DNA of 37,740 bases from Chloroflexota bacterium. GTDB lineage: Bacteria > Chloroflexota > UBA6077 > JACCZL01. Every line of letters begins with the position of its first letter. The stretch's first letter is position 1. Below are positions 1,791-21,851 of this stretch, piece by piece. The notes beneath the pieces are model-generated. The model was not told where the DNA came from, searched no databases, and saw only the letters and a list, made by a program, of their open reading frames with translations. Location: positions 1 through 37,740 of the forward strand of contig JADZEM010000114.1 of NCBI GenBank assembly GCA_020850535.1, read 5' to 3'. Position numbers and translations under genes: made by a program.

Positions 1791-3479
1791 TCAGCGGGCC
1801 AGCCGCCGCTCGGCCAGGTTCGCCGGCGGCGCCAGGCTGATCGGGTCCGTGTCCGGCTCGCGGGCCGCCAGCGCGTGGCGCACCCGCAACCCCAGATGCA
1901 GCGCCAGTCTGGTCTCAGGGTCGCTCAGGTGATGGCCGCTGATCTGCTCGATGCGCCGCAGGCGATAGGCGACCGTGTTGCGGTGAAGATGCAGCCGCGA
2001 GGCCGTCTCGGCAAGGCTGTTGTCGGCGGCGAAGAACGCTTCGAGCGTCGGCAGCAGCTCCGACCGGTTCGAGCGGTCGTACTGGTCGATGGCCGCCAGC
2101 GTCTCCTCGTAGAATGCGCCGAGCTCCGGGTGCCCGTCGAGCGCCAGCAGCAGCCGGTGTACTCCCAGGTTCTGGAAGAAGGTCAGCTCGCCGGGCGGGA
2201 ACAGCCGCCGCGCGATGACCAGGGCGCGGTCGGCCTCGCGGTAGCCCTGCGCGATGGCCGTCGGGCCGGTCCCGACCCGCCCGACGCCTGCCGACACAAC
2301 CTTGCCGCTGACCTGGGCCGCCAGCCGGTGGACGCGCGCGGCGATGGCGACAGGCTCATTGCCGTCGACCGGATGCGCCAGCCCGATGGTGTCCCCAAGC
2401 ACGCCGACCGGCGCCGAGACGCCGAGCCGGCTCAACTCGCGGATCAGGCCAGTGACGACGTCATGGCTGCGCGGCAGGGCAGTCGCCGAATCGGAGGCGA
2501 CCCGCAGGGCAATCGGCAGATGCGGCGCCGTCAGGTTGAAGCCGAGCCGCTCCGCACGCTCCAGCAGGGCCGAGTCGGAGGTGAACGCGCCGCTGAGGAG
2601 GTCCGTCACCACGTCACGGCGCAGACGGTCCTCGGCCTGAAGAACCGCCCGCTCACGGGCCAGCACCAGTGCGCAGACCGTCGCGCCCTGGGACGCGCTC
2701 AGCGCGTCCGCCCGATTCAGCGACTCGTGCGGCGCGATCAGCGACAGGAACGCCAGCGCACCGTCGTCGGCGGCGATGGGGGCCACCACCCGCCCGATGC
2801 CGTCCAGTTCCAGGCGGAAGCGCTGGGTTGGCGGGTCGGCGGCCGGCACGCGCCGCCCATCGATCCAGGCGTACAGCCGCGAGCGCGCCCGATCCAGCGC
2901 ATCGACGACCTGGACGCGGTCCGGCAAACTCACGGCAGCGCCACTCAACTGGCGGATGCCTGACGCATCCTCGACAGCCACGGCACGCCGCGTGAGCACG
3001 GCCAGCCGATCCACGATGGCCGGCAGCCCGTGTCCGGCGATCAACAGCTCGGTCAACTGCTGCTGCACCTGCCGGGTCTGCTCGGCCGTCTCGGCCTGGC
3101 GGTCGGCCAGCAGGCGCAACGCCTCGTGCTCGGACTCGCTGAGGGAGGCGTCTTTCGGCAGGGAGAGCAGCGGGAACCCGAGCGCATCCGCCCGAGCGAT
3201 GGCCGACTGATCGATGCCGCCACGGGCCGCGACGGCCGCCACGCCAGCCTGAGCCAGCTGATCGAGTGCGCGAGCCAGCGTCAACCGGTCGTCGAGCGAG
3301 CGGAGTGTGTCGGCGGCGACGAGTACCAGCTCACCACCCTTGAGCCCCACAAGGCCTGGGGGGCGCGGGCGGAGGGTGATCACCCAGCGGACTTCACGGT
3401 CCAACCCGAGTTGACCACCGACGAGTTGCGTGCCCGGCGGAAGCGCGCCGGCCCAGACATCGTGAACAGTGGCGGACAT
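1791..3479 (-). CDS. PucR-family transcriptional regulator
   Basis: The 562-aa protein has the three-part PucR layout. Residues about 8-120 match the purine-catabolism-regulator N-terminal domain (WVITLRPRPPGLVGLKGGEL, then ALGFPLLSLP). The middle looks like the degenerate GGDEF-like/CdaR ligand region. The C-terminus (about 475-540) is an HTH_30 DNA-binding domain with the diagnostic SLAETASRLHLHRNTVAYRL followed by RRIEQISG. Such proteins sense small metabolites (purines, sugar acids, amino acids) and usually control a neighbouring catabolic operon. None is contiguous here, so the target is unknown. It lies 281 bp downstream of the response regulator with no obvious shared transcript. The family call is firm; the ligand is not. 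Confidence 0.9.
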   Translation of the reverse strand: MSATVHDVWAGALPPGTQLVGGQLGLDREVRWVITLRPRPPGLVGLKGGELVLVAADTLRSLDDRLTLARALDQLAQAGVAAVAARGGIDQSAIARADALGFPLLSLPKDASLSESEHEALRLLADRQAETAEQTRQVQQQLTELLIAGHGLPAIVDRLAVLTRRAVAVEDASGIRQLSGAAVSLPDRVQVVDALDRARSRLYAWIDGRRVPAADPPTQRFRLELDGIGRVVAPIAADDGALAFLSLIAPHESLNRADALSASQGATVCALVLARERAVLQAEDRLRRDVVTDLLSGAFTSDSALLERAERLGFNLTAPHLPIALRVASDSATALPRSHDVVTGLIRELSRLGVSAPVGVLGDTIGLAHPVDGNEPVAIAARVHRLAAQVSGKVVSAGVGRVGTGPTAIAQGYREADRALVIARRLFPPGELTFFQNLGVHRLLLALDGHPELGAFYEETLAAIDQYDRSNRSELLPTLEAFFAADNSLAETASRLHLHRNTVAYRLRRIEQISGHHLSDPETRLALHLGLRVRHALAAREPDTDPISLAPPANLAERRLAR

Positions 3480-3760
3480 GGGGCCGCGAAATGCCTCGCT
3501 GAAGGAGTCACCTGGGCTGCGCCCGAGCGCCCGGCCCAGCCGTCTCGGTCAGGATACCGGCTTCCGATGGTGTCAACATTGGACAGCGGGGACAAGAAAG
3601 CCGCAGGAGTGTTGGGCAGATCGCCCAATCGACTCCCGTCGAACAGGGGCCAGGACCGTCTTCCTGGCACAATGCCTGTGGCAGCTTGCACAGATGCCTG
3701 CCAGACCTGCCGCAGCCCACGGTGCGCGCCAGCCCTAGTCGGGCGGGCTGCGCGGGCCGG

Positions 3761-4453
3761 TCAGTCGAGGTGCGGCTCGAAAGCGTACCCGCCGCCGGGC
3801 GCTGTCACGAGGTAGGTGGGCGACGACGGGTCCGGCTCGATCTTGCGGCGCAGCCCGAGAATCACCTGCCGGAGCGCCCCATGTGCGTCCTCGTAGCCGG
3901 GGCCGCGCAGGTGACGGAGCAGCTCCTGCGGCGTGAACACCCGACGCGGGTGCGCCAGCACGAGATCCATCAGCTTGGCCTCGGATGGCGTGAGCCGCGA
4001 TGCTTCGCCTTTGAGCACGCTGCGTCGCGACGAGACGTCGATCTCCAGATGCTGATCGTGATACCGCCCCACAACTGCCGACGGCCCGCGGGAACGTCGC
4101 AACATCGCTTCGGCGCGCGCGGCCAACTGGCGTGGGCTGAACGGCTTGATGACGTAGTCGTCAGCACCAGCCTTGAAGCCCCGGACCACGTCCTCGTCGT
4201 GATGGCGGGCCGTCAGCATGATGATCGGCGCGCGGCTGACCTCGCGGATGCGCGAACAGAGCGAGAAGCCGTCGATGTCCGGCAGCCCGACGTCCAGCAG
4301 GATCAGCGCGGGATCGTCCTCGTCCAACGCACGCAACGCCTGCCGGCCGTCCGACGCAGAGCGCACGGTCATACCGGCCGCGCGGAGGGTCTCGCGCACC
4401 AGCAGGCAGATATGCGGCTCATCATCGACGACCAGAACGAGCGGTGAATCCAT
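3761..4453 (-). CDS. OmpR/PhoB-type response regulator (KdpE-like)
   Basis: The 230-aa protein has an N-terminal receiver domain with the acidic pair Asp10-Asp11, phosphoacceptor Asp54 (LILLDVGLPDIDG), conserved Thr in IIMLTARH and Lys in VIKPFSP. A C-terminal winged-helix domain follows (LTPSEAKLMDLVLAHPRRVF and VDYL-like recognition segment ending GGGYAFEP). It would bind DNA as a phosphorylation-driven dimer. No histidine kinase is visible next to it, so it is an orphan within this window. The KdpE resemblance is in overall sequence only, and no kdp genes are present. ATG start at 4453. Confidence 0.92.
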   Translation of the reverse strand: MDSPLVLVVDDEPHICLLVRETLRAAGMTVRSASDGRQALRALDEDDPALILLDVGLPDIDGFSLCSRIREVSRAPIIMLTARHHDEDVVRGFKAGADDYVIKPFSPRQLAARAEAMLRRSRGPSAVVGRYHDQHLEIDVSSRRSVLKGEASRLTPSEAKLMDLVLAHPRRVFTPQELLRHLRGPGYEDAHGALRQVILGLRRKIEPDPSSPTYLVTAPGGGYAFEPHLD

Positions 4454-4644
4454 GCAAGTCGGAGGCGAACGGCCCCGAACGTGTCACAAAAATGTGCGAG
4501 CGTCTGAACCCAGGCGAGACGCCACGCTCCACGTGGGAGTCTATCACACCCGGACCGCACACTCTCGCGCGAAGAGCCGCCAGCCCGCGACGCTGGCAGC
4601 CACGGCCGCCCCGCTCGTCAATCATCACGGCGGGAGCGCCGCCG

Positions 4645-4714
4645 GCCACGCCCTGCCGGCCACGCCCTGCCAGCCACGCCCTGCCAGCCACGCCCTGCCA
4701 GCCACGCCCTGTCG
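4645..4714. repeat. Five tandem copies of a 14-bp unit
   Basis: The unit GCCACGCCCTGCCA is repeated five times head to tail. Copies 2-4 are identical; the first ends in G and the last ends TGTCG. It looks like a simple VNTR in the spacer upstream of the response regulator. No function is apparent. Confidence 0.85.
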
Positions 4715-4757
4715 TAGCGCCCGGGCGGCTGCTCGGCGCCGGGCCGAACACAAAAGC

Positions 4758-4784
4758 GCCCCCTCGACAGTTGGTCGAGGGGGC
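4758..4784 (-). terminator. Hairpin, probable terminator of the sigma-factor transcript
   Basis: A perfect 11-bp stem (GCCCCCTCGAC / GTCGAGGGGGC) with a 5-nt loop. On the minus strand it is followed within two bases by CTTTTG, a short T-tract. It lies about 230 bp downstream of the sigma-factor stop, so the transcript would carry a long 3' tail. On the plus strand no T-run follows, which argues for minus-strand use. Confidence 0.6.
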
Positions 4785-5015
4785 TGGCGTCAAGCATAGC
4801 GGGGGGACGAGAGCGGGAGAGCTGTTCGATCCTGGCAGGAAAGCTCGTGAGATCAGCGAAAACGAAGCAGCCTGAGTGAGAGCGGGCAGATACTGGTTGC
4901 GAGCGTTGTGGATGCTGCTGCTGGTGGTGGGCGCTGCCAGTTGGTGGAGAGAGCGGGTCTTGCAGGAGCGTCTCAGCGGGTCCGGCGGGAGAGCGATCGA
5001 CGAGAGAGCAGGCGA

Positions 5016-5624
5016 CTAAGCGACAGCCTTGCGGAACGGCGTAACGTTCGTGGGAATCGTCGGGCGGGCAGTCTGGATGGGCTGGGCGGTTGACGGAGAG
5101 AGATACCGGCGGAGGTTTGCGAGTGCGCGGGCCTGCAGCTTCTTGACGGCCTCGTCGGACCGCCCCATGACGGCGGAGGTCTCGGCGACGCTCATGCCCT
5201 GCATGAAGCGCAGCTCAACAGCCTGCCGCTGCTCGGGGGTCAGGCGAGCCATCGCAGGCTCGAGGGAGTGGCGGTCGAGCACGCGGGTGTAGTCCGAGCT
5301 GGGCCGCAGCTCGGGCATCTCCGCGACCTCGTCCAGAGACGACGCAGCGGTCCGGGGAAGGGTGCGGAGGTAGTCGACGAGGTGGTTGTGGGCGATGCGG
5401 TAGAGCCAGGCGGTGAAGGGAAGGCCGCGCTCCACGTACTTGTCGAGCTTCTCGTAGACCTTGACGAAAATGTCCTCGGTCAGATCCTCCACGATGTCGT
5501 CCGAGCCATCGAGGCGGCGGCGCAGGAAGCGGTAGACGAGCGGGGAGTACTGCTCGTAGAGGGACGCGAACGCCTGGTGGTCACCCTGCTTCGCCAGCTC
5601 TACCAGCTCTGCTACTGCCTGCAT
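5016..5624 (-). CDS. Sigma-70 family (ECF-like) RNA polymerase sigma factor
   Basis: About 202 aa. Region 2 runs from [20 protein letters not shown] through [15 protein letters not shown] to [20 protein letters not shown], the typical -10-recognition and core-binding segment. Region 4 is [18 protein letters not shown] followed by [22 protein letters not shown], the -35-binding HTH. Region 3 is absent, as in ECF factors. I chose the ATG at 5624 over 5708 because it is preceded by GGGAT at good spacing, region 2 starts right after it, and the extra 28 residues upstream look non-coding. No anti-sigma gene is adjacent downstream. The C-terminal tail ([14 protein letters not shown]...) is low complexity. 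Confidence 0.88.
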
Positions 5625-6111
5625 CGTCGTGATCCCTTCCGTCCCGTCTCTCGTCACGGCCAGGGGCCGTGTCAGGGGTGCTGGGGTGTCGGTCTGTGTC
5701 CCGACCACAGTGTCGCACGGGATTCGTCAGGCGGGCGTTAGAAAGGCGCAGGTTGACATCAGGTACGCGTCAGGATTCAAACGGCGTCTCAGTGCGCGCA
5801 CCGTAGACCCTGAAGCTCGAACAGCTGTCGCAGTCCCGACACACCCTGACCTCGTCGGGCAGGCCCCGCACGCGGCAGACATGACGACTGACACACGGCC
5901 GGCCAGAACGTGTGATCTCTCCGTAACGCGAAACCCCTTCCAGAACGGATGTTCTTCCCGTACGATCAGCGTGTGCATATGCACGCGGCAGCACGGCGCA
6001 GGCTGCTCTACAGGTGGATGTCGTCAGCGCGATCGAAGTGCGAGCGCTCGCGCGCATGGTCGTCCGTCGGGTGTGTGCCGAGCGGAAACTCCTGTGTGGA
6101 GGGCAAGGGAG
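5625..6111. promoter_or_regulatory. Divergent intergenic region with two palindromes
   Basis: This 487-bp spacer separates the sigma-factor gene from the BNR-repeat gene, so both promoters should lie here. It contains AGAACGGATGTTCT (5942-5955), a perfect GAAC-N4-GTTC palindrome matching the Gram-positive LexA-box pattern, and GTGCATATGCAC (5973-5984), a perfect 12-bp palindrome 18 bp further on. Neither overlaps a promoter I can identify with confidence, so assignment to either gene is open. Confidence 0.45.
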
Positions 6112-7230
6112 ATGACTGGCGTACGGGTACTCGTGGGGACGCGCAAGGGCGCGTTCATCCTGACCGCCGACGGCAAGCGTGACCGCTGGGAGGTCAGCGG
6201 CCCGCACTTTGCGGGCTGGGAGATCTACCACATGAAGGGCTCGCCGGCCGATCCGAATCGGATCTACGCCTCGCAGACCAGCGGCTGGTTCGGCCAGTTG
6301 ATGCAGCGCTCCAGCGATGGCGGCAAGACCTGGGAGCCGGTCGGCAACCAGTTCGCCTACGATGGCACGCCCGGCACCCATCTCTGGTACGACGGCACCC
6401 CGCACCCGTGGGAGTTCGCACGGGTGTGGCACGTCGAGCCGTCGCTGGCGGACCCGGACACCGTCTACGCGGGCGTGGAAGACGCGGCGCTCTTCCGCAC
6501 CACGGACGGCGGGCAGTCGTGGCACGAGATGACGGGTCTCCGTAACCACGAGTCCGGCAAGTACTGGCAGCCGGGCGCCGGTGGCATGGGGCTGCACACC
6601 ATCGTGCTGGACCCACAGACGCCGGGCCGCATGTTTGGCGCGATCTCGGCGGCCGGCGTCTTCCGCTCGGACGACGCCGGCGAGACCTGGCGGCCGACCA
6701 ACAAGGGGCTGAAGTCGCCGTACGAGTTGCCGAACCCCGATGCCGAGGTCGGGCACTGCGTGCACCGGCTGGCGATGCATCCGTCCAGGCCGAACACCCT
6801 GTTCATGCAGAAGCACTGGGACGTGATGCGCTCCGACGACGCCGGCGAAAGCTGGTACGAGATCAGCGGCAACCTGCCGACCGATTTCGGCTTCCCCATC
6901 GACGTGCATGCCCACGAGCCAGAGACCGTCTACGTGGTGCCGATCAAGAGCGACTCGGAGCATTTTCCCCCAGAGGGCAAGCTGCGCGTCTACCGCAGCA
7001 AGAGTGGCGGCAACGAGTGGGAAGCGTTGACGAACGGGCTGCCCCAGGCTGACTGCTACGTCAATGTCCTGCGCGACGCGATGGCCGTGGACAAGATGGA
7101 CGAGTGCGGCGTCTACTTCGGCACGACGGGCGGCCAGGTCTACGCCTCGGCGGACGGCGGCGACAGCTGGGCGCCCATCGTGCGAGACCTGCCGGCCGTG
7201 GTGTCGGTCGAGGTCCAGACGCTGCCATGA
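6112..7230 (+). CDS. BNR/sialidase-like beta-propeller repeat protein
   Basis: About 372 aa. It carries repeated Asp-box (BNR) motifs of the form S-x-D-x-G-x-(T/S)-W: SSDGGKTW (67-74), then [26 protein letters not shown] and SADGGDSW, with a degenerate RSKSGGNEW between the last two. These mark blades of a six- or seven-bladed propeller as in sialidases and Ycf48-like proteins. No signal peptide is visible, so it is probably cytoplasmic, and sialidase catalytic residues cannot be assigned. ATG at 6112 follows GGAGGGCAAGGGAG; the upstream extension of the frame is non-coding. Its stop overlaps the start of the next gene (ATGA), which implies translational coupling with the ThiS/MoaD-like protein. 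Confidence 0.88.
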
Positions 7231-10426: not shown

Positions 10427-11608
10427 TCAGGGGCCAGTCGGGCGAGCCTCGCGGGCCGTCAACTCAGCCCGGGCGCCACGGGCCTCGTGCGTCAGCGTCA
10501 CCAGTTGGCGGTCCGAACGGGCGTTGCGGACGCCGGCCAGCACCCGCAGCGCCCGACCTGGGTCGCGCCCGAGCTGGCGGGCACGGGTCGCCAGCTCCTC
10601 GTCGGTGGCATCGGCCGGCAGGCCGACAGCCTGGGTGAGCTGGTGGCGCACCTGCCGCGCCAGGTGCTCGGCCACCCACGCCCGCTTGCGGCCGGCCCGG
10701 TAGAGCGCCGCCTGCGACGACACCAGCTCTCCGAGTGACCGTCCACGGTCCACAAACACGGGGACGGACCGGCCGAGCCGTCGTCCACGCCAGAGCAGGA
10801 AGACCAGCAGCACCACGCCAGCCCAGAACACCGCCCGCCCCCAGGTGTACGCGAACACGAATCGGAACAGGCCACCACTCCGGGTCTGCCCGAAACCGTG
10901 GTGCAGCTCGTCGAACGCCACCGTCTGGCCCTGGCCGCTCGGCCCGATCAGCGAGAGCGCCAGCCGGGCATGGTCAGGGGTCCGCAAGCCCTCGTTCGAG
11001 AACAGGTCCGGGACGGTGATCGCGATGACCTCGCCGCGCCCGGCCGTGACGCGAGCGGCCAGCACCGGCCGCCCGCCGGCCGGGGAGGCCTCCTCGCGCT
11101 CGCCGTAGAGCAGGGGCGTGAGCCGGCCGCTGGTCCGGGTCAGATCGAAGGCCCGGGCGGTCGCCGTCGCGGGCAACGACATCGGCTCGATCCGTGGATC
11201 GAGCCCGGCGCCGTTCGCGGGGACCACCCGCACGATGTCCGCCACCGGCCGCAGTGCAAGGGAGAAGCTCCGCAGCAAGGGCGCTGTCTCGAACGTCGCA
11301 TGCACCACCAGCCGCCCACCCCGACGGACGAACCGTTCCAGCTCGGCCACTACCGCGCCGTCGAGCGACGAGCGCGGGGCCAACACGACCACCACGTTGG
11401 CGTTGCCCGGCACGCGGTACGGCTCTGCCTCGATAGTCGAGACGGTGTGGCCGAGCGCTTCGAGCCAGAGACGGAGCGCTTTCCCACCCGTGGGCTGCGC
11501 AGAGTAGACCGTCAGCCGTGGCTGCTCGCGGTTGTCCGGCGAGACCAGCACCAGCATGGCGAACAGCAGCACGAACAGCCCGCCGAACAGCGCCAGCCGC
11601 CGGTTCAC
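10427..11608 (-). CDS. DUF4350-domain membrane-anchored protein
   Basis: 393 aa. An N-terminal signal-anchor (LALFGGLFVLLFAMLVLVS) is followed by an extracytoplasmic domain typical of DUF4350: YSAQPTGGKALRLWLEALGH, then VVVVLAPRSSLD, the region that folds like a glutamine-amidotransferase-type Rossmann domain. A second membrane segment at about residues 250-275 (WGRAVFWAGVVLLVFLLWRG) precedes a cytoplasmic C-terminal tail rich in Arg (RAGRKRAWVAEHLARQVRHQ). The start overlaps the DUF4129 stop by 4 bp. In many bacteria DUF4350 and DUF4129 genes sit with a MoxR ATPase and a DUF58 protein; neither is present here. Molecular function unknown. Confidence 0.85.
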   Translation of the reverse strand: MNRRLALFGGLFVLLFAMLVLVSPDNREQPRLTVYSAQPTGGKALRLWLEALGHTVSTIEAEPYRVPGNANVVVVLAPRSSLDGAVVAELERFVRRGGRLVVHATFETAPLLRSFSLALRPVADIVRVVPANGAGLDPRIEPMSLPATATARAFDLTRTSGRLTPLLYGEREEASPAGGRPVLAARVTAGRGEVIAITVPDLFSNEGLRTPDHARLALSLIGPSGQGQTVAFDELHHGFGQTRSGGLFRFVFAYTWGRAVFWAGVVLLVFLLWRGRRLGRSVPVFVDRGRSLGELVSSQAALYRAGRKRAWVAEHLARQVRHQLTQAVGLPADATDEELATRARQLGRDPGRALRVLAGVRNARSDRQLVTLTHEARGARAELTAREARPTGP

Positions 11609-12381
11609 GGGCGGACGCCCCCGGCAGCGACGGCACGCTCGCTGTCCCGAGCCGACGGTGGATCGACCGCCCCGGCCGCCTCCCAGACGCGCTCGGCCAG
11701 CACACTGAAGTGGGCGTACTCGGCCTCAGAGCACGTCTGCTGGCCGTACCAGAGGCGGTCGAAGCGGGCCACCAGCGCCGAGAACGGCTCCACCAGGGAC
11801 GGATCGCCGGTCAGGTGCGGCAGAAACTCGCGGTTGGTGAGCGCGCCGTCGAACACCAGGTGCGCGCGCTCGTCCAGCCGCAGCAGGACCGCCAGGTAGA
11901 GATGATGGACGGCAAGGCGCGGGTCGGCCTGGGCGACGGCACGCGCCCGCGCACGCTCGTCAGCGGCCCCGGGGCGGCCCGCCTCGGCACGGTCGGCGAG
12001 GCGCTCGTTGGCCGAGAGGCTCCCCCGCGACAGCCGGTAGAGCACGATCGCCACGCCGATCACCACGACCACGCTGACGATCAGCATGATCCACGCAACG
12101 CCCGCCTCGGCATCCGTGCGGCTGATCCCGAACAGGTCACCCAGCCACGCCAGCAGCCGCACGAACAGCGACCACAACCAGTTCCAGAACCGGTTCACGT
12201 ACGTCTCGAACAGCGAGGAGCCGGCCGCCATCTGGAACTCAGGGCGGGCCAGGATCGCGTCGAGCGCGGCAAGCTGCTCGGGCGTGGCCGAAGGCGCATC
12301 GCTCTGGCGCAGACCCTCAGGCCCGGCCGGCACGAGGGCCGCGCGCGCCAGCGCCCACATCCCCGCCGCCAGCACGCTCAT
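11605..12381 (-). CDS. DUF4129-domain membrane protein
   Basis: 258 aa. The N-terminus (LAAGMWALARAALVPAG) resembles a signal sequence. A membrane segment (AWIMLIVSVVVVIGVAIVLY, about 95-115) separates it from a C-terminal DUF4129 domain: AVHHLYLAVLLRLDERAHL, LTNREFLPHL and FDRLWYGQQTCSEAEY, the latter being the typical (F/Y)-x-x-x-WYG signature. It overlaps the DUF4350 start by 4 bp and follows the upstream membrane gene by 10 bp, so the three form one operon. A function linked to cell envelope or to a MoxR-type chaperone system is suggested by family context only. Confidence 0.85.
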   Translation of the reverse strand: MSVLAAGMWALARAALVPAGPEGLRQSDAPSATPEQLAALDAILARPEFQMAAGSSLFETYVNRFWNWLWSLFVRLLAWLGDLFGISRTDAEAGVAWIMLIVSVVVVIGVAIVLYRLSRGSLSANERLADRAEAGRPGAADERARARAVAQADPRLAVHHLYLAVLLRLDERAHLVFDGALTNREFLPHLTGDPSLVEPFSALVARFDRLWYGQQTCSEAEYAHFSVLAERVWEAAGAVDPPSARDSERAVAAGGVRP

Positions 12382-12391
12382 GCCGGGACGC

Positions 12392-13297
12392 TCACGGGCG
12401 TTGCGCGGCGACCTGGGCCGCGGTCTGGGCGGCTGCCTGACGATCCAGCCGCAGCTCGATGTCGAACGCCTCCTTGCGTACCCGAGCGTCGAAGTAGAAC
12501 CGCGCCATCACGATGTACGAGATCGAGAGAAACAGCGTCTCACCCAACGCCTGCAAGACGATCTGGCCGACCTGGAACAGCACGAAGCCGCCCGAGCCAA
12601 CCTGCGAGATCGACTCGGCCCAGATCGCCGCGCCAACGCCTGCGAACACGGCCAGCAGCGTCACCGGGATCGCCACAAGCATCGCCACCACCATCGAGAT
12701 CACGATGTAGCAGATCATCAGCTGCCAGCGGCGGCCACGCATCAGCTCCCAGCTTCGGCGCAGCGCATCGGTGCCGCTGACCGGCTCCATGACGATGACC
12801 GCGAAGACCAGCCCCCAGCTCATCGCGAAGAAGATCGACACCGGAAAGCACAACGCCGCGCCACTGACCACGAGGCCTACCAGGAGGCCGGCGATGCTGA
12901 CGGCCCCGAACCGGCGCAGCGCCAGGCGGTACGCGTCCCAGATGTTGACGGTCTGCCCGAGGATGGCGTCCGACGCGATCTTCAACGCCGCGACGCCGGC
13001 CAGCAACTGCCCGAGCATCGTCAGCAGCGTGACCGGCAGCGTCATGAGCGCCGCGCCAATGCCAACGGCTGCACCCATCTCGGAGGAGATGCGTCCACTG
13101 CCGAGCGAGCCGCCGAGGATAGCCATGCCGGCGATCAGCGCCATCCGGAGCAGCGCCAGCGGCACGATCACCACCGCCGCCGCCGTGATGAACGCCACGA
13201 ACTGCCGACGGTAGACCTGGATCGACTCGTCCAGGATATCGCCGACGGAGAGGGGGCGCATCCTGAACCCGGATGCCGGACGCGCGTCAACTGCCAT
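12392..13297 (-). CDS. Polytopic integral membrane protein, first gene of the DUF4129/DUF4350 operon
   Basis: 301 aa with about six hydrophobic segments (FITAAAVVIVPLALLRMALI, a second near MTLPVTLLTMLGQLLAG, and VSIAGLLVGLVVSGAALC, VFAVIVMEPVS, VVAMLVAIPVTLLAVFAGVG, and a last one near FQVGQIVLQALGETLFLSIS). The opening MRPLSVGDILDESIQVYRR resembles the membrane domain found in glycerophosphodiester-phosphodiesterase-type and DUF7847-like proteins, which have no known activity by themselves. The C-terminal tail is Ala/Gln-rich. ATG at 13297. It precedes the DUF4129 gene by 10 bp. Confidence 0.75.
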   Translation of the reverse strand: MAVDARPASGFRMRPLSVGDILDESIQVYRRQFVAFITAAAVVIVPLALLRMALIAGMAILGGSLGSGRISSEMGAAVGIGAALMTLPVTLLTMLGQLLAGVAALKIASDAILGQTVNIWDAYRLALRRFGAVSIAGLLVGLVVSGAALCFPVSIFFAMSWGLVFAVIVMEPVSGTDALRRSWELMRGRRWQLMICYIVISMVVAMLVAIPVTLLAVFAGVGAAIWAESISQVGSGGFVLFQVGQIVLQALGETLFLSISYIVMARFYFDARVRKEAFDIELRLDRQAAAQTAAQVAAQRP

Positions 13298-13474
13298 CGT
13301 GCCTGCCCGCCACCCTTTCGCCGGCGTACGCCGGCCTCACGTCGATCCCCAGTCAGCGTACAGCATGACGCCCGCGCTGAGATACTAGGGGACAGGGGGT
13401 GGATTTTGGCAGTTTGCCCAGCCGCGCCCGGATACTTCCAACATGCACAGTGTCAGACACGGAGACGACGGCCG

Positions 13475-15505
13475 ATGATGGGTGGCGGTGGCTGGTGGCA
13501 GTATCTCCACCAGGACGAGCATGCAAAGGGCGCAGCCATCGACCGCTCGGTGCTGCGGCGCGTGGCCGGCTACGCCCGGCCATACCAGGGGCGCATCGCC
13601 CTGATGCTGCTGACGATCCTGGCGATCACCGGCCTGACGCTGGTGCCGCCGCTCCTGATGCGGGCGCTCATCGACGAGGCGTTGCCCAACCGCGACTTCT
13701 GGCAGCTCAACCTGCTGGCGGCGGGGATGGTGCTGGTGCCACTGCTCAACGGGCTGGTGAGCGTCCTTCAGCGCTGGGTCAGCTCGCAGATCGGCGAGGG
13801 GATCATCTTCGACCTGCGCTGCGCCGTCTTCGCCCACCTCCAACGGCAGTCGCTCCGCTTCTTCACCCAGAGTAAGACCGGCGAGCTGATGGCGCGCGTC
13901 AACAACGACGTGGTCGGATCGCAGCAGGCGATCACCAACACGCTGCCCAGCGTCATCTCGAACTCGCTGGCGCTCGTCGCGACCCTCGGGATCATGCTGG
14001 CGCTCGAATGGCGGCTGACCGTCCTCGGCGTCGTGATCCTGCCGCTGTTCATCCTGCCGGCGCGGCGGGTCGGCGATCTGCTGCGGCGGGTCACCCGTGA
14101 GAGCATGGCCCTGAACGGCCAGATGAACGGCATGATGAACGAGACGCTCAACGTCAGCGGGGCGCTGCTGGTCAAGCTGTTCGGGCGGGAGCGCGAGGAG
14201 AACCGGCGCTTCTCGGAGCGGGCCGGGCGCATCCGCGACGTCGGCATCAGGCAGGCGCTGATCGGCCGCTGGTTCTTCCTGGGCATCGGGCTGGTCAGCT
14301 CGATTGGCACGGCGATGGTGTTCTGGACGGGCGGCTACCTTGTGCTGACGGACGGCCTGACCATCGGGACGGTCGTCGCGTTCGGGGCGTACCTCGGGCA
14401 GTTGTACGGGCCAATCGCGGCGTTGACGAACGCGCGCGTCGAGCTGGTGACCTCGCTGGTCAGCTTCGAGCGGGTGTTCGAGGTGCTGGATCTGCCGCTG
14501 GAGATCGAGGAGCAGTCGAACGCGCTGGAACTGACCCGGGTGCGTGGCGAGATCCGCTTCGAGGACGTCTCCTTCACCTACGGGGCGGCCACCGGCAACG
14601 GGCTGACCGCCGTCGAGCGGATCGGGACGCGGTTCGCGGAGCCGCCGCCGGCGCTGCGCAGCGCGGCTGCCGCCCCGGCGAGCACCAACGGCCACGGCCC
14701 GGCGCCCGCCATGCCCACAGCCCCGGTGTCGGCCGCGGGCAACGGCGCACCCGACGAGGCAGCGCAGCGCTGGGCGCTCCGGCACGTCTCGTTCACGGCG
14801 CAGCCGGGTCAACTGGTGGCGCTGGTCGGGCCGAGCGGCGCGGGCAAGACGACCATCACCTACCTGCTGCCCCGCCTCTACGACCCGACTGAGGGCCGGG
14901 TCCTGCTGGACGGCCACGATCTCCGCACCCTCAGCACGGCCTCGCTGGTGGCGCAGATCGGGATGGTCACCCAGGAGACGCACCTCTTCCACGACACGAT
15001 CCGCGCCAATCTGCTCTATGCGCGCCCTGACGCGTCCCAGGCGGAGATCGAGGCCGCCTGCATCGCCGCCAACATCCACCCGCTGATCGCGGGGCTGCCA
15101 GACGGCTACGACACGCTGGTCGGCGAGCGCGGCTACCGCCTCTCCGGCGGCGAGAAGCAGCGGCTGGCCATCGCGCGGGTGCTGCTCAAGAACCCGAGTA
15201 TCCTGGTGTTGGACGAGGCGACCGCGCACCTGGACTCGCAGTCTGAGGCGCTGATCCAGCAGGCGCTGGATGGGGCGATGCGTGGCCGGACCAGCCTGGT
15301 CATCGCGCACCGGCTGAGCACGATCCTGGCCGCCGATCAGATCCTGGTGATGGAGGGCGGGCAGATCGCGGAGCGGGGGACGCACGCCGAATTGCTGGCG
15401 GCCGGCGGTCTGTACGCCCGCCTGTACGAGACGCAATTTCGGGCCGCGCCGATCCTCGACGCCGACCCCGAGGAGATCGCCGCAACAGCAGCAGAAGCCC
15501 CGTAG
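13475..15505 (+). CDS. ABC-type exporter, fused permease and ATPase (half-transporter)
   Basis: About 676 aa. An N-terminal six-helix type-IV exporter membrane domain (residues about 35-330; includes MLLTILAITGLTLVPPLLMR and SFERVFEVLDLP at its end) is fused to an ATPase. The nucleotide-binding domain has Walker A GPSGAGKTT (about 452-460), Q-loop IGMVTQETHLF, signature LSGGEKQR (about 555), Walker B ILVLDEATAHLD and H-loop AHRLS. The domain carries an Ala/Pro-rich insert of about 55 residues between its first strand (FEDVSFTYG) and the Walker A strand, not usual in MsbA-type proteins. It would act as a dimer exporting lipid, peptide or drug. Start set at the ATG at 13475 behind GGAGACGACGG; upstream frame is a shadow. 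It converges on the FtsK-like gene. Confidence 0.93.
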   Translation: MMGGGGWWQYLHQDEHAKGAAIDRSVLRRVAGYARPYQGRIALMLLTILAITGLTLVPPLLMRALIDEALPNRDFWQLNLLAAGMVLVPLLNGLVSVLQRWVSSQIGEGIIFDLRCAVFAHLQRQSLRFFTQSKTGELMARVNNDVVGSQQAITNTLPSVISNSLALVATLGIMLALEWRLTVLGVVILPLFILPARRVGDLLRRVTRESMALNGQMNGMMNETLNVSGALLVKLFGREREENRRFSERAGRIRDVGIRQALIGRWFFLGIGLVSSIGTAMVFWTGGYLVLTDGLTIGTVVAFGAYLGQLYGPIAALTNARVELVTSLVSFERVFEVLDLPLEIEEQSNALELTRVRGEIRFEDVSFTYGAATGNGLTAVERIGTRFAEPPPALRSAAAAPASTNGHGPAPAMPTAPVSAAGNGAPDEAAQRWALRHVSFTAQPGQLVALVGPSGAGKTTITYLLPRLYDPTEGRVLLDGHDLRTLSTASLVAQIGMVTQETHLFHDTIRANLLYARPDASQAEIEAACIAANIHPLIAGLPDGYDTLVGERGYRLSGGEKQRLAIARVLLKNPSILVLDEATAHLDSQSEALIQQALDGAMRGRTSLVIAHRLSTILAADQILVMEGGQIAERGTHAELLAAGGLYARLYETQFRAAPILDADPEEIAATAAEAP

Positions 15506-15523
15506 CGCGGGTGTTCGGACGCG

Positions 15524-17098
15524 TCAGGCGGTCCGCAGCACCTGCGGCTGCACGCCGTGGATGATCTTCTTCGCCAGCCCGCCACGTGGCGGCTTGTCCA
15601 GCTCCACCCAGCAGTTCTTGAAGTCGGGATCGTGCCAGACGAACCGGCGGCCATCCCAGGCGAGCGTCGTCGCGATCTGCTCCATCTCGTGCAGGTTGAA
15701 GCCGTACGGCATCGACTGGTCGGTGTCCACCAGCAGGATGGGGTGGACGCCGTAGCGCGGCCCCTTCTGGAGGATCGGCGTCAGCAGCCGGCTGACCGGG
15801 CCAGAGACGTTCGTCGGGAAGTCGAGCATGACCAGCACGCGGCACGGCTCGGCCACGCCGTTGGCACGGTTCGGGTCGAGGCGCGGCAGCATCGAGGCGA
15901 ACGCTGTGGCCTCAGCAGCGCCCTCGACGAGGTTGGCCAGGTCGCTGAGCCGCTGCTCGATCTGCATCGGCTCGGACCAGGAGCGGCCCTCGCCGATGCC
16001 CAGCCCGGCATCCGCGAATGCCAGGAACGGCGCGACGTTGCGACCCTGGCCGAGCGGATCGATCAGGGTGAACTTGAGGTCGCCGGGTGGGACGGTTGCC
16101 ACCAGCCGCAGGAGGATCGACTGTACCGCTTCGATGGCGCGCTCGCGGGCATGCGTGTCCGTCTTGATGATGAGCGGCTTGTCGTGCGGGAACGGCACCA
16201 GCGCGGGCAGGGTGATGCGATCGTCGCGGATGCCGGCCAGGAGCTCCCCGACACAGATGGCGCGCGGCATGCGGGTCGAGGGCATCCAGGTATTCCAGGC
16301 CGGAGCCGACCATTCAGGCCCGACGGCTGTGGCGGCGGCATTGAACTTGTCGATCGACGGGCCGAGGAGGGCCAGCTGCTGTCGAAAGCTCTGGGCGATG
16401 CGCGAGCGCCCCTCGTCAAACCGCTCCTGCCACTCGTTGAGGCGACGGTCGAACGTGCTGCGGGCCTCCTCGACCAGCACCTGGTGCATGTAGAGGACGT
16501 ACCCCATGTGCTGACGGATGAACCCGTAGTCCTCGTCCGGGGTGTACGGTCGCAAGAAGGTGGCGCGCGCGCCGGCCACGAGCAGCGCGAGCACCAGCGG
16601 GCTCACCATCGCGCCGAACCAGCCGAAGCTCAGGCCAGGGTTGCCCGACCCGGCCACAAACGGCATCACCAGGATCGCCCCAGCCGCCACCACCGCCCCC
16701 ACGATGATGCCGACGGTGATCAGGTTGCTGGACGAGCCGTCCGCCATCGCGGACTGGATCCGCAGCAGGCGAGCTTCCATCTGGGCGGTGGTGATACGCA
16801 GGCCGATGACGAGGTCGGTGTCGAAGAGGGTCAGCGGGTGGGCCGGCACGATCTCGCCCATGGTCGAAGCGTCCCCACGCTGCGGCACGAGCAAGTCAGC
16901 AGTTCGGAGAATGTCGTAGGCGCGGCGGAGCTGGGTGTCGGCAGCCTCGCGGGACTGCGCGAACGCCTGGTCGGCCGCCTCACGGTCGAGGCGGAGCCGG
17001 TTCTCGGCGTCGAGCTCCTCCTGGGTGTATTGATCGGCAAGCTGCTTGACAGCGAGTACGACCTCTCGCTGTTGCTGGATGATGGTCGGCTCGGCCAT
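15524..17098 (-). CDS. FtsK/SpoIIIE-like protein lacking the motor domain
   Basis: 524 aa. The N-terminus (1-75) is a charged coiled coil. Two membrane segments follow at about 126-149 and 158-178. Residues about 200-260 are again coiled. The C-terminal half (ICVGELLAGIRDDRITLPAL, then KFTLIDPLGQGRNVAPF, then PCRVLVMLDFPTNVSGP) matches the segment that precedes the ATPase in large FtsK/SpoIIIE-domain proteins of actinobacteria and relatives. The protein stops (GLAKKIIHGVQPQVLRTA) where the Walker A-bearing motor would begin, and no motor sequence is found downstream. Strong RBS (GGAGGG) before ATG 17098 suggests it is expressed. It could be a truncated gene, or a stand-alone member that works with a separate motor. 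Confidence 0.7.
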   Translation of the reverse strand: MAEPTIIQQQREVVLAVKQLADQYTQEELDAENRLRLDREAADQAFAQSREAADTQLRRAYDILRTADLLVPQRGDASTMGEIVPAHPLTLFDTDLVIGLRITTAQMEARLLRIQSAMADGSSSNLITVGIIVGAVVAAGAILVMPFVAGSGNPGLSFGWFGAMVSPLVLALLVAGARATFLRPYTPDEDYGFIRQHMGYVLYMHQVLVEEARSTFDRRLNEWQERFDEGRSRIAQSFRQQLALLGPSIDKFNAAATAVGPEWSAPAWNTWMPSTRMPRAICVGELLAGIRDDRITLPALVPFPHDKPLIIKTDTHARERAIEAVQSILLRLVATVPPGDLKFTLIDPLGQGRNVAPFLAFADAGLGIGEGRSWSEPMQIEQRLSDLANLVEGAAEATAFASMLPRLDPNRANGVAEPCRVLVMLDFPTNVSGPVSRLLTPILQKGPRYGVHPILLVDTDQSMPYGFNLHEMEQIATTLAWDGRRFVWHDPDFKNCWVELDKPPRGGLAKKIIHGVQPQVLRTA

Positions 17099-17257
17099 GG
17101 GTCCCTCCTGCGGCCAGCGCGGCCGGCGGCACCGTGACAGTCCCTCACCAGATACAACGAGTGCACCAGGGCGTAAGAGACAATAGCTGAGTCTCGATTC
17201 TGCGACAGTCAGATCAGGGTGTCAAGAGTTCGTATGTACTTGCAATTCAGTAGTGAT

Positions 17258-19608: not shown

Positions 19609-20463
19609 ATGAGTGACAATTCTGCGATTGAGTGGACGGACGCCACCTGGAACCCAGTCACTGGCTGCTCAAAAGTGAGCGAAGGCTGCCGCAACTGCTA
19701 CGCGGAGGCGCTGTCGCTGCGCTTCGGACGCTCAACGAAGCCGTGGGCCGCGCAGTTTGCCGACGAAAACGTGGTCCTTCACCCTGACCGGCTGGACTAC
19801 CCACTCAAGTGGAAGGACGCCAGGCGCATCTTCGTCAACTCCATGAGCGACCTATTTCACGAGAACATCGACGATGGCTTCGTCTGCCGCGTGTTCAAGG
19901 TCATGGGCGCAGCATCACATCATACCTATCAGGTCTTGACGAAGCGCCCCGCCCGCATGCAGGCTCTAATCCAACGGTGGTCCGATGCGTTTCACGGCAA
20001 GAGACTAGACAGTGACCAGGGTGAGAATACTTGGCCGCCGCCACACATCTGGCTCGGCGTCAGCGTCGAGGACCAGAAGACCGCCGATGAGCGCATCCCG
20101 CTGCTGTTGAACACACCTGCTGCCGTTCGCTTCCTGAGTTGCGAACCACTCCTGGCCTCAATTGACCTGTGCCAAGCTGCCGGCGCGCCAACTGACCACG
20201 CACACGGTTTCGCCTGCCGTACTTTCCTCCGAGACCTACACTGGGTCATCGTGGGCGGCGAGAGTGGCCCGCGTTTCCGTCCTCTTGACCTGGACTGGGC
20301 ACGATCTCTTCGCGACCAGTGCATAAGTGCAGATGTGCCGTTCTTCTTCAAGCAAGTGGGTGGCAGGACACCGAAGTCCGGGGGACGGCTGCTCGACGGG
20401 CGAACCTGGGACGAGCAGCCACGGGTCCAGGAGCGACAACTTCAAGTGGCAGCCTTCGGCTGA
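19609..20463 (+). CDS. DUF5131 (phage Gp37/Gp68-like) three-Cys-motif protein
   Basis: 284 aa. It opens with IEWTDATWNPVTGCSKVSEG, then CRNCYAE: Cys20, Cys27 and Cys30 form the C-x6-C-x2-C triad for which the family is named. FGRSTKPWAAQF, RRIFVNSMSDLFHENIDD, YQVLTKRPARM, WLGVSVEDQKTADERIP and VIVGGESGPRFRPLD are other family blocks. The three cysteines could bind an Fe-S cluster in a radical-SAM-like way, but that is inference. It is preceded by a consensus-like promoter with a LexA-type operator (19555-19584) and converges 3 bp from the TcmP gene; the two families are usual neighbours. The lower GC content of this pair suggests transfer. Confidence 0.9.
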   Translation: MSDNSAIEWTDATWNPVTGCSKVSEGCRNCYAEALSLRFGRSTKPWAAQFADENVVLHPDRLDYPLKWKDARRIFVNSMSDLFHENIDDGFVCRVFKVMGAASHHTYQVLTKRPARMQALIQRWSDAFHGKRLDSDQGENTWPPPHIWLGVSVEDQKTADERIPLLLNTPAAVRFLSCEPLLASIDLCQAAGAPTDHAHGFACRTFLRDLHWVIVGGESGPRFRPLDLDWARSLRDQCISADVPFFFKQVGGRTPKSGGRLLDGRTWDEQPRVQERQLQVAAFG

Positions 20464-20466
20464 CGG

Positions 20467-21618
20467 TCAGGCTGGCGGAAATTCGATCACGTCACTTGGC
20501 CGCAACTTGTTCTTGGAGGGCAAGTTGTTGCGGAACAGACGAATGCGGCCTTGGTGGGCCAGGTCCTCTAGCGCCTTCTTGATATGGTTATCGGTGTAGC
20601 CGTCGAATTCATGGCCGACTGCGGTCTCATTCTGCACACGCTCATACTCCGAGCGGCGACCCGAGAATCGTGTTCGGAGCAACGCACGCAGCGACGTGTA
20701 GTCGACCGTCAGGTTCATGCGAACCTCAGGGGTGAACAGATCCAACTGACCCGATTCAGAAGCCATGACCGCGGGATGGCTTGCTCCCAGGAAGGCTGTG
20801 AACCCACCCAGAGCCTCGAACATCGCTTCCTTCATCTCACGCTTGCCCTTCGGATGCCCTGTTGAGTGGACAAGGAAGTAGATGATGTCAGTCGGCCCTC
20901 GCCGTGCGACACCCACCGAGGTCACGAAGCGTCGATGCCCCGGAGCAGTCGTGGCCTCCAAGCGCTCTACGTACAGGTCACGCAATGCACCCACACGATC
21001 TGGCGACTGCTTGACTTCGTCGAGGCGGGCAAGCAACTCATCGCCTTCCAAGCCGAAGAGTTGAGCATCAGCCGTCTGGTGGTTCGCATTCTCAAGAAAC
21101 CGATTGATATCCTGCACCATCAATGTTACAAGCACTTCAGCCCTGGGCAGGCTGAGGATACGGTTGACCAGGGACAGGGGAAGCCCTGCGTATCCGAACG
21201 GGTCAATGAACCAGAAGGACGGGCGCCCGGCACGCCGAATCGCATCCACAATTCCCGGTGCAGCGCCCTCGAACGTATCACAGATCGGGTCGTGTTCGAC
21301 AACCCGCTCCAAGGGTCCAGATGCTGCGATTTCAGCCGCCAGCATTTTGGCGTTCGCCGGATTACGTTCGATGTAGTAGAGATCGACATCGAAGTCGCGA
21401 TTGCCTGCAACACGACCGGCGATGTCGCGAAGGAGCAAGGGCGACCCCGGTTCTTCGGTGGTGTAGCGGCCCCGTCCAGCGAAGGCATCGACAATGACGA
21501 GCCGCCGGTGTATCCGAAGAATCGGTAGCCATGCTTTCATGTAGCGAACGAGGATTTCGTGCTTCGCTCTGGTGTGTGGTGCGTTACCCCATTTCTGAGG
21601 ATCGTCGTCCGACAGCAT
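20467..21618 (-). CDS. tcmP: Three-Cys-motif partner protein TcmP
   Basis: About 383 aa. The family start (QKWGNAPHTRAKHEILVRYM) is followed by a Rossmann/methyltransferase-like glycine-rich loop LVIVDAFAGRGRY (Asp44), an acidic strand VDLYYIERNPANAKML, the FWFIDPFGYAGLPL hallmark, and a C-terminal winged-helix-like segment FDGYTDNHIKKALEDLAHQG. Enzymatic activity is not established; a DNA/RNA methyltransferase-like fold is inferred from motif layout. I prefer ATG 21618 (preceded by GGGGGG at 6 nt) to ATGs at 21648 and 21663, because the 21648 ATG lies inside the LexA-like palindrome and the family N-terminus begins after 21618. It is convergent with DUF5131 (3 bp between stops). Confidence 0.88.
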   Translation of the reverse strand: MLSDDDPQKWGNAPHTRAKHEILVRYMKAWLPILRIHRRLVIVDAFAGRGRYTTEEPGSPLLLRDIAGRVAGNRDFDVDLYYIERNPANAKMLAAEIAASGPLERVVEHDPICDTFEGAAPGIVDAIRRAGRPSFWFIDPFGYAGLPLSLVNRILSLPRAEVLVTLMVQDINRFLENANHQTADAQLFGLEGDELLARLDEVKQSPDRVGALRDLYVERLEATTAPGHRRFVTSVGVARRGPTDIIYFLVHSTGHPKGKREMKEAMFEALGGFTAFLGASHPAVMASESGQLDLFTPEVRMNLTVDYTSLRALLRTRFSGRRSEYERVQNETAVGHEFDGYTDNHIKKALEDLAHQGRIRLFRNNLPSKNKLRPSDVIEFPPA

Positions 21619-21642
21619 CGCGTGCCCCCCAAACGCAGTATG

Positions 21643-21691
21643 GAACATACGTTCGCCTAGCATGATACAGAGAGCTGGCGTCGGTGTGCAA
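21643..21691 (-). promoter_or_regulatory. Promoter of tcmP with downstream LexA-like operator
   Basis: On the minus strand TTGCAC (21691-21686) and TATCAT (21667-21662) are 18 bp apart. The palindrome GAACGTATGTTC (21654-21643; GGAACATACGTTCG on the plus strand) begins 7 bp after the -10, at the expected transcription start. It matches the Gram-positive LexA consensus at its degenerate positions as well as its core. The element lies 24 bp upstream of the chosen ATG. Confidence 0.7.
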
Positions 21692-21851
21692 TGAGGACGC
21701 AATGATGTTAGGGATGATCTGCAAGTCTTGAGGCTTTTCCGCCTTGATCTCCGGTCCGCCGCTATCATCCCCAGAGACGGCGTGGTCGGGCGGCGTGCCG
21801 TTGCCGCCAGGTCGTCAGCGTCCCCGCCGAATCCTTCTCAGGAGCGACGCC

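Follow-up and report, generated by a model that had tools for sequence, protein, structure and literature searches.

The locus described here raises a simple question: is a gene that encodes only the front part of a large membrane-bound ATPase a working gene, or what is left of a broken one? The gene, referred to as P0001, lies in a window of 37,740 nucleotides (positions 1 to 37,740 of contig JADZEM010000114.1) from the draft genome of a Chloroflexota bacterium (GCA_020850535.1). The original prediction, made from the letters of the window, described an FtsK/SpoIIIE-like protein that stops before its motor. The results below make it probable that P0001 goes back to a full-length ATPase of the type VII secretion kind (EccC/EssC-like) with three ATPase-type domains (D1, D2 and D3), that D2 and D3 were lost, and that the remainder persists as a stand-alone membrane protein.

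An intact gene without a motor

P0001 starts with ATG and runs through 524 codons without an internal stop, as read directly from the window. Its GC content by codon position (0.69/0.45/0.90) resembles that of the window's other strong genes, and third-position GC stays at 0.85-0.94 across five blocks along the gene, i.e., the coding signature is kept to the end. Together with the AGGAGG ribosome-binding site (Table 1), this agrees with the original view of an intact gene in use. Profiles for D2 and D3 found no match at E 1e-4 among window frames of at least 60 aa, and no type VII secretion component was recognised beside P0001 among 10 window proteins compared with Pfam.

Table 1. Positions of P0001, its parts and its flanks in the window
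Feature	Position	Strand	Basis
Motorless EccC-type gene P0001, 524 aa	15524..17098	-	ORF call and coding signature
Ribosome-binding site AGGAGG, 5 nt upstream of ATG	17104..17109	-	Read from sequence
N-terminal long helix (coiled coil), residues 7-66	16901..17080	-	AlphaFold2 model
Membrane helix 1, residues 126-148	16655..16723	-	Model and hydropathy
Membrane helix 2, residues 158-181	16556..16627	-	Model and hydropathy
Stalk, helices 187-244 and 246-259	16322..16540	-	Model
D1, degenerate FtsK/EccC-type ATPase domain, residues 281-517	15548..16258	-	Profile match and fold
P-loop position, degenerate, residues 313-320, TDTHARER where GxxGxGKS is expected	16139..16162	-	Alignments and model
Diverged D1 segment, residues 386-415, clustered conserved-position losses	15854..15943	-	Alignment; low pLDDT at 406-415
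Gap between the stops of P0001 and the convergent ABC gene, 18 bp	15506..15523	.	Sequence
Convergent ABC transporter (ABC_membrane and ABC_tran), neighbour, functional link not seen	13439..15505	+	Pfam

D1 has an ATPase fold but no P-loop

Sequence searches gave P0001 no family label. Pfam, NCBIfam and PADLOC were all without a match at E up to 10, matches to PDB sequences were found only at E 0.38 or worse (0.16 or worse with the D1 profile alone), and a weak PHROGs match (E 0.14) was rejected as chance helix similarity.

An AlphaFold2 model built with 48 aligned relatives had a mean pLDDT of 82, with D1 mostly above 90 and low values at residues 406-415. It contains helices at residues 7-66, 94-119, 126-148, 158-181, 187-244 and 246-259, followed by an alpha/beta domain from about residue 278, and thus reproduces the coiled coil and the two membrane helices of the original prediction. 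The D1 profile, which includes the P0001 sequence itself, matches P0001 with 302 bits.

The D1 fold is closest to EssC (4lya, Z 19.7, 235 residues, rmsd 3.0), FtsK (6t8o, Z 19.4) and EccC (4n1a, Z 19.3). Across FtsK motor structures, Z-scores were 18.7-19.4 with 226-234 residues aligned, so the FtsK-type alpha/beta ATPase fold is present and the assignment to a motorless member of the FtsK/SpoIIIE superfamily is borne out. The nucleotide-binding motifs are not there. At the P-loop position the model has a strand (309-313) and then a helix (318-335), with the substitution given in Table 1, and at the end of the Walker B strand LDFP stands in place of DE; both positions are degenerate in the aligned relatives as well. 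P0001 has no FtsK motor domain bearing the two Walker motifs, in agreement with the empty Pfam search. Because an ATPase fold is combined with a degenerate P-loop and Walker B, D1 is a pseudo-ATPase. What had been called a pre-motor domain does exist, but it is itself of the FtsK/EccC ATPase type.

The place where P0001 ends was also refined. Its C-terminus lies 7 residues past the D1 profile match, before linker and motor, whereas the linker between D1 and D2 in fused relatives has 42-52 residues in 79 of 82 loci. P0001 therefore ends ahead of the expected Walker A site, by about 55-60 residues as estimated from L024: the protein does stop before the motor, but not exactly where Walker A would begin.

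Relatives are type VII secretion-like ATPases

Relatives were collected from two sources. Eleven came from 400 genomes drawn within the phylum (12/400 counting the genome of P0001), and the best 80 of 90 loci were taken from genome contigs by two conserved peptide patterns, a procedure by which a divergent stand-alone form could be missed. The resulting 91 loci include two contigs counted twice. The D1 profile matches all 91. D1 and D2 share one frame in 82/91, and the complete order D1-D2-D3 was found in one frame in 73/91. The nine loci without D1 and D2 in one frame comprise four that run off the contig (a contig end cuts the gene in L043, L071, L096 and L119), two that change frame, one two-gene split and two with D1 but without D2. 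L026 was rejected as a natural split between D1 and D2-D3 since its frame changes inside D1, and L067 was not counted as one since its frame changes in the linker with no obvious start for the second part.

In full-length relatives, D1 is degenerate, D2 intact and D3 degenerate, and 28 aligned members show no variation at the glycines and lysine of the D2 Walker A motif. A profile of these 28 fits EccC best (3.4e-46), followed by EccC5 (8.8e-39), YukB (3.7e-31) and FtsK (1.7e-16). Its best stretch is D2, matching EccC5 residues 490-675. As this match falls directly after the DUF of EccC5 (124-417 in 8rin), D2 is, by sequence position, the first ATPase of EccC. Foldseek ranked EccC (4nh0 and 4n1a) highest for the full member L052. 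Ranked by Z-score, the best matches are single FtsK motor domains (31.1 over 276 residues, mainly D2), and EccC 4nh0 aligns over 743 residues with Z 27.6 and rmsd 14.3.

Equivalence of D1 with the DUF of EccC is something we infer mainly from position and order, the fold being nearer to ATPases 2-3 of EssC/EccC and to FtsK. The DUF domain 8rin aligns to P0001 D1 with Z 15.5 (227 residues, rmsd 3.9). On the full-length model it aligns best to D2 (Z 16.3), and EccC5 7b9f, which comprises stalk and DUF, aligns to D1 (Z 15.2).

WXG100-like genes accompany the relatives

Near the ATPase genes of relatives lie genes for small proteins, about 90-100 residues long and with W-x-D at the centre. Among four that were tested, L057:2236-2508 passes the Pfam WXG100 cut-off (30.8 versus 27.3 bits), two match below it (23.7 and 20.8 bits), and L027:5435-5644 does not match. 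Using a profile (A4) built from 19 of these small neighbour genes, we found a WXG100-like gene in 40 of 46 well-covered loci; since 13 of the 40 had contributed to the profile, the independent count is 27/33. Eight duplicates or near-duplicates (judged by eye) and gene frames running off the contig had been removed; in the 46 loci that remain, the ATPase gene is complete and flanked by 1.5 kb or more on either side. By ATPase form, the counts are 27/31 for two membrane helices, 10/12 for none and 3/3 for one. In 59/59 strong-match loci (with duplicates counted), the best match shares the strand of the ATPase gene and lies -12 to 5507 bp away. The EccC fit of the profile and the WXG100-like gene in 40/46 loci both identify the family as type VII secretion-like at the sequence level, and the secretion-like setting considered at the outset is supported for the family.

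No WXG100 gene was found in the draft genome of P0001, where PF06013 reached at best 14 bits against a cut-off of 27.3 and profile A4 had no match. This absence is weak evidence, because A4 detects a gene in only 7/12 D1-bearing genomes and misses G038 and G360, both with a fused ATPase, and because the genome is a draft.

L057:3591-7763 (JACQGS010000210.1, a Chloroflexi MAG) is unusual in carrying a GroEL apical domain in frame near the end of D1 (phmmer to GroEL 1.3e-29). Its D1 and D2 matches are 249 residues apart, and a WXG100 gene lies upstream. BLASTP found the GroEL insert in no other of the 91 loci.

The family motor was not found elsewhere in the draft genome

P0001 could also be the membrane-D1 subunit of a two-gene ATPase, its motor being encoded in an unassembled part of the genome or supplied by a distant FtsK-type protein. 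Such an arrangement exists in the family. In L073 (an Armatimonadetes MAG, 3119-7065), D1 and D2-D3 are two genes overlapping by ATGA, and two WXG100-like genes follow the D2-D3 gene. The membrane-D1 gene of L073 ends in a domain with weak similarity to L7/L12 (PF00542, E 0.004, which is under the cut-off). The own genome, in 227 contigs, is 96% complete, which leaves some room for a missing gene.

We searched this draft with PF01580 and with the D2-D3 part of L024 and did not find a D2-D3 motor of the P0001 family. PF01580 was above cut-off at three places, and each was rejected as a family member and missing motor: C61:3444 is an FtsK-sized frame of 795 aa, C68:115029 is SspH of a defence system (PADLOC, 2142 bits), and C68:90810 encodes a 1365-aa LysM/FtsK protein. 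Hits of the L024 query at E 1 or better were confined to two places, with E-values of 2.7e-19 and 1.1e-13, and these were again SspH and the FtsK-sized frame; in nine genomes that have D2 of this family, the same query gave 5e-53 to 0. The suggested role of P0001 as anchor or regulator for a separate ATPase thus found no support in the 96%-complete draft, as far as an ATPase of its own family is concerned. The SspH-type protein, on contig C68 at about 110-116 kb (L035:4290-9827), suggests a phosphorothioate-related defence locus in this genome.

A published precedent is similar only in part. ESX-1 EccC is made as two proteins, and its membrane half consists of DUF plus first ATPase domain (PMC11154593). 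P0001 resembles this half as a membrane-bound N-terminal EccC part made as a separate protein, but it has the DUF-like part alone, without the first ATPase domain, and the matching second half was not found in the draft genome. In addition, a D1 segment (residues 386-415, see below) is kept by the split L073, lost in P0001 and deleted in L029, which has no D2. On this evidence, we regard a two-gene machine as improbable.

Losses in D1 are clustered

Conserved D1 positions are not lost evenly in P0001. Each row of the alignment was left out in turn, and losses at conserved D1 columns inside residues 386-415 were compared with those outside. Duplicates L049 and L052 had been dropped from the first alignment, and the reference set excluded the window, L026, L029, L031, L043 and L115, and for the loss test also L033. 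P0001 has lost 11/13 conserved positions in 386-415 versus 8/42 elsewhere (Fisher 3.4e-5, the lowest of 90 rows, an optimistic p-value because the segment was picked after the losses had been seen). The two relatives without D2 lean the same way, L029 with 11/13 versus 16/42, through a deletion that takes away most of the segment, and L031 with 8/13 versus 15/42. The split L073 retains the segment in its D1 protein. As a counterpoint, some fused relatives show a similar tendency (5/14 versus 0/42 in L081, 9/15 versus 13/43 in L032 and 7/15 versus 9/42 in L030).

Neutral decay should spread losses evenly. As they are clustered here, the alignment suggests the release of a segment that couples D1 to the motor, with the rest of D1 still under constraint. 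A long neutral history of P0001 is unlikely, because simulated frames seldom stay open: under random substitution, 9-17% of runs still had an unbroken frame after 100 substitutions, and 1.5-4.4% after 200. A tree (without L026, L043, L115 and L119) that placed P0001 with L051 and L061 (support 0.8) was not relied on, in view of its long branches. Taken together, these observations suggest that P0001 is retained as a protein of its own and is not a decaying fragment.

The main alternative is a recent truncation, in which the motor was newly lost, the pseudogene has yet to decay, and the divergence of D1 predates the event. Stand-alone relatives of the same length, a search for which the original prediction had proposed, were not found among phylum genomes, viral contigs or genome contigs; the nearest cases are the two-gene split of L073 and the D2-less L029 and L031. 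With P0001 as sole query, no relatives were found in viral or genome contigs. At E 1e-5, no copy other than P0001 turned up in 29 genomes of its class, where profile A2 gave weak matches in G008, G010 and G003 (E 2.8e-8 to 2.4e-4; frames of 756, 2961 and 724 aa), and the closest fused D1 domains are 42-45% identical to P0001. It had been argued that P0001 would be a truncated pseudogene if all relatives carried a fused motor. Fusion is indeed the rule (82/91), but the clustered losses, the coding signature up to the gene end and the intact frame all oppose decay, and the contig has no D2 or D3 match. The simulated frames also speak against this alternative, a very recent event still being compatible with them. 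Overall, we consider recent truncation unlikely.

The junction with the ABC gene

A wrong join of two pieces at 15505/15524 is a further conceivable origin. The assembly is fragmented, P0001 is unique in its class, and synteny gives the junction no support. ABC matches of 61-71% identity were found in 8 of 13 relatives searched, with weaker ones in a ninth, G010. When 22 window proteins were compared (E 1e-6) with the eight ABC regions (8.4-20 kb, two of them short at 8.4 and 11.8 kb), only the ABC matches were recovered, and 0/8 regions had a match to another window gene. These regions thus offered no empty site for comparison, and the original idea that arrival of the ABC gene removed the motor is conjectural. 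Such a join, however, would have to hit the 18 bp between two proper stops, just past a domain end, and we consider it very improbable.

A putative motorless membrane scaffold

EccC/EssC (YukB) and P0001 share two N-terminal membrane helices, a stalk and a degenerate ATPase-fold domain without Walker A. The DUF is the first and degenerate domain of EccC, placed behind two membrane helices and a stalk; a published proposal is that it forms hexamers and opens the membrane pore (PMC11154593, PMC8131196). In EccC/EssC an ATPase domain with intact Walker A follows the DUF, whereas P0001 ends after D1. The full relatives are like EccC/EssC in that D1 is followed by an active ATPase domain and this by a degenerate one, usually with a WXG100-like neighbour, but EccC has two degenerate domains after the active one (PMC11154593) and the relatives have one. 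FtsK/SpoIIIE translocases share with P0001 the motor fold and a membrane-anchored N-terminus; they differ in that P0001 has no P-loop, and the family fits EccC better than FtsK and has WXG100-like neighbours. P0001 is taken to be derived from the EccC family. We do not call it an EccC ATPase, because the active domain is absent and a WXG100 partner was not found in the draft genome, and a role in export is putative.

Motor loss, continued selection, oligomerisation and a scaffold role are what we infer for P0001. The ancestor would have had two membrane helices, a stalk, a degenerate D1, an active D2 and a degenerate D3. After loss of D2 and D3, the membrane-stalk-D1 part would have persisted alone, with D1 in the position of the EccC DUF, likewise without ATP-binding residues. 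The two helices would anchor the protein in the membrane, coiled coil and stalk would drive self-association, and the D1 domains could form a passive ring or scaffold beneath the membrane that binds partners without mechanical work. A natural protein of membrane helices, stalk and DUF-kind domain would allow the role of the EccC DUF to be tested without the motor. A partial survey of the type VII secretion literature showed no description of a stand-alone DUF-type protein.

L029 and L031 are like P0001 in having D1 without an active D2, and belong to the same phylum. L029 (G173, 2948-6335) combines a protein kinase, membrane helices, D1 and D3, and in L031 (G294) D1 is kept and D2 reduced to a short tail. 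Unlike in P0001, D3 is present in both and a protein kinase is N-terminal in L029. Since D3 continues downstream in another frame, either one may be a damaged gene. With this in mind, it is a tentative idea, to which we give limited credence, that motor loss is recurrent in Chloroflexota EccC-type ATPases (P0001, L029 and possibly L031), the survivor being a working motorless membrane ring in which the stalk and the inactive ATPase domain would serve by themselves as gate or scaffold. If true, the degenerate first domain of EccC would have a motor-independent function, and residues 386-415 would be a coupling element to the motor.

Published descriptions place type VII secretion in Actinomycetota and Bacillota; Chloroflexota are reported with fewer WXG100 sequences, and the Gram-negative loci are unconfirmed (PMC11217815, PMC3935865, PMC10765036). 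According to a review, Gram-negative WXG100 sequences with an FtsK/SpoIIIE gene are limited in number and unconfirmed in function (PMC10765036). We found EccC-type ATPases with WXG100-like genes also in contigs whose titles name Planctomycetes, Acidobacteria, Armatimonadetes and Proteobacteria.

Other genes of the window

Two adjacent genes, 19609-20463 and 20470-21768, encode proteins that appear to resemble phage Gp37/Gp68 and three-Cys-motif partner proteins. The second had no Pfam match at E 1e-5. Their third-position GC (0.71 and 0.65) is below that of most neighbours, and they are perhaps a mobile or defence pair. Beyond the ABC gene, on the opposite strand and divergent from it, genes for DUF4350, DUF4129 and GPDPase_memb proteins lie in a row (10427-13297, minus strand).
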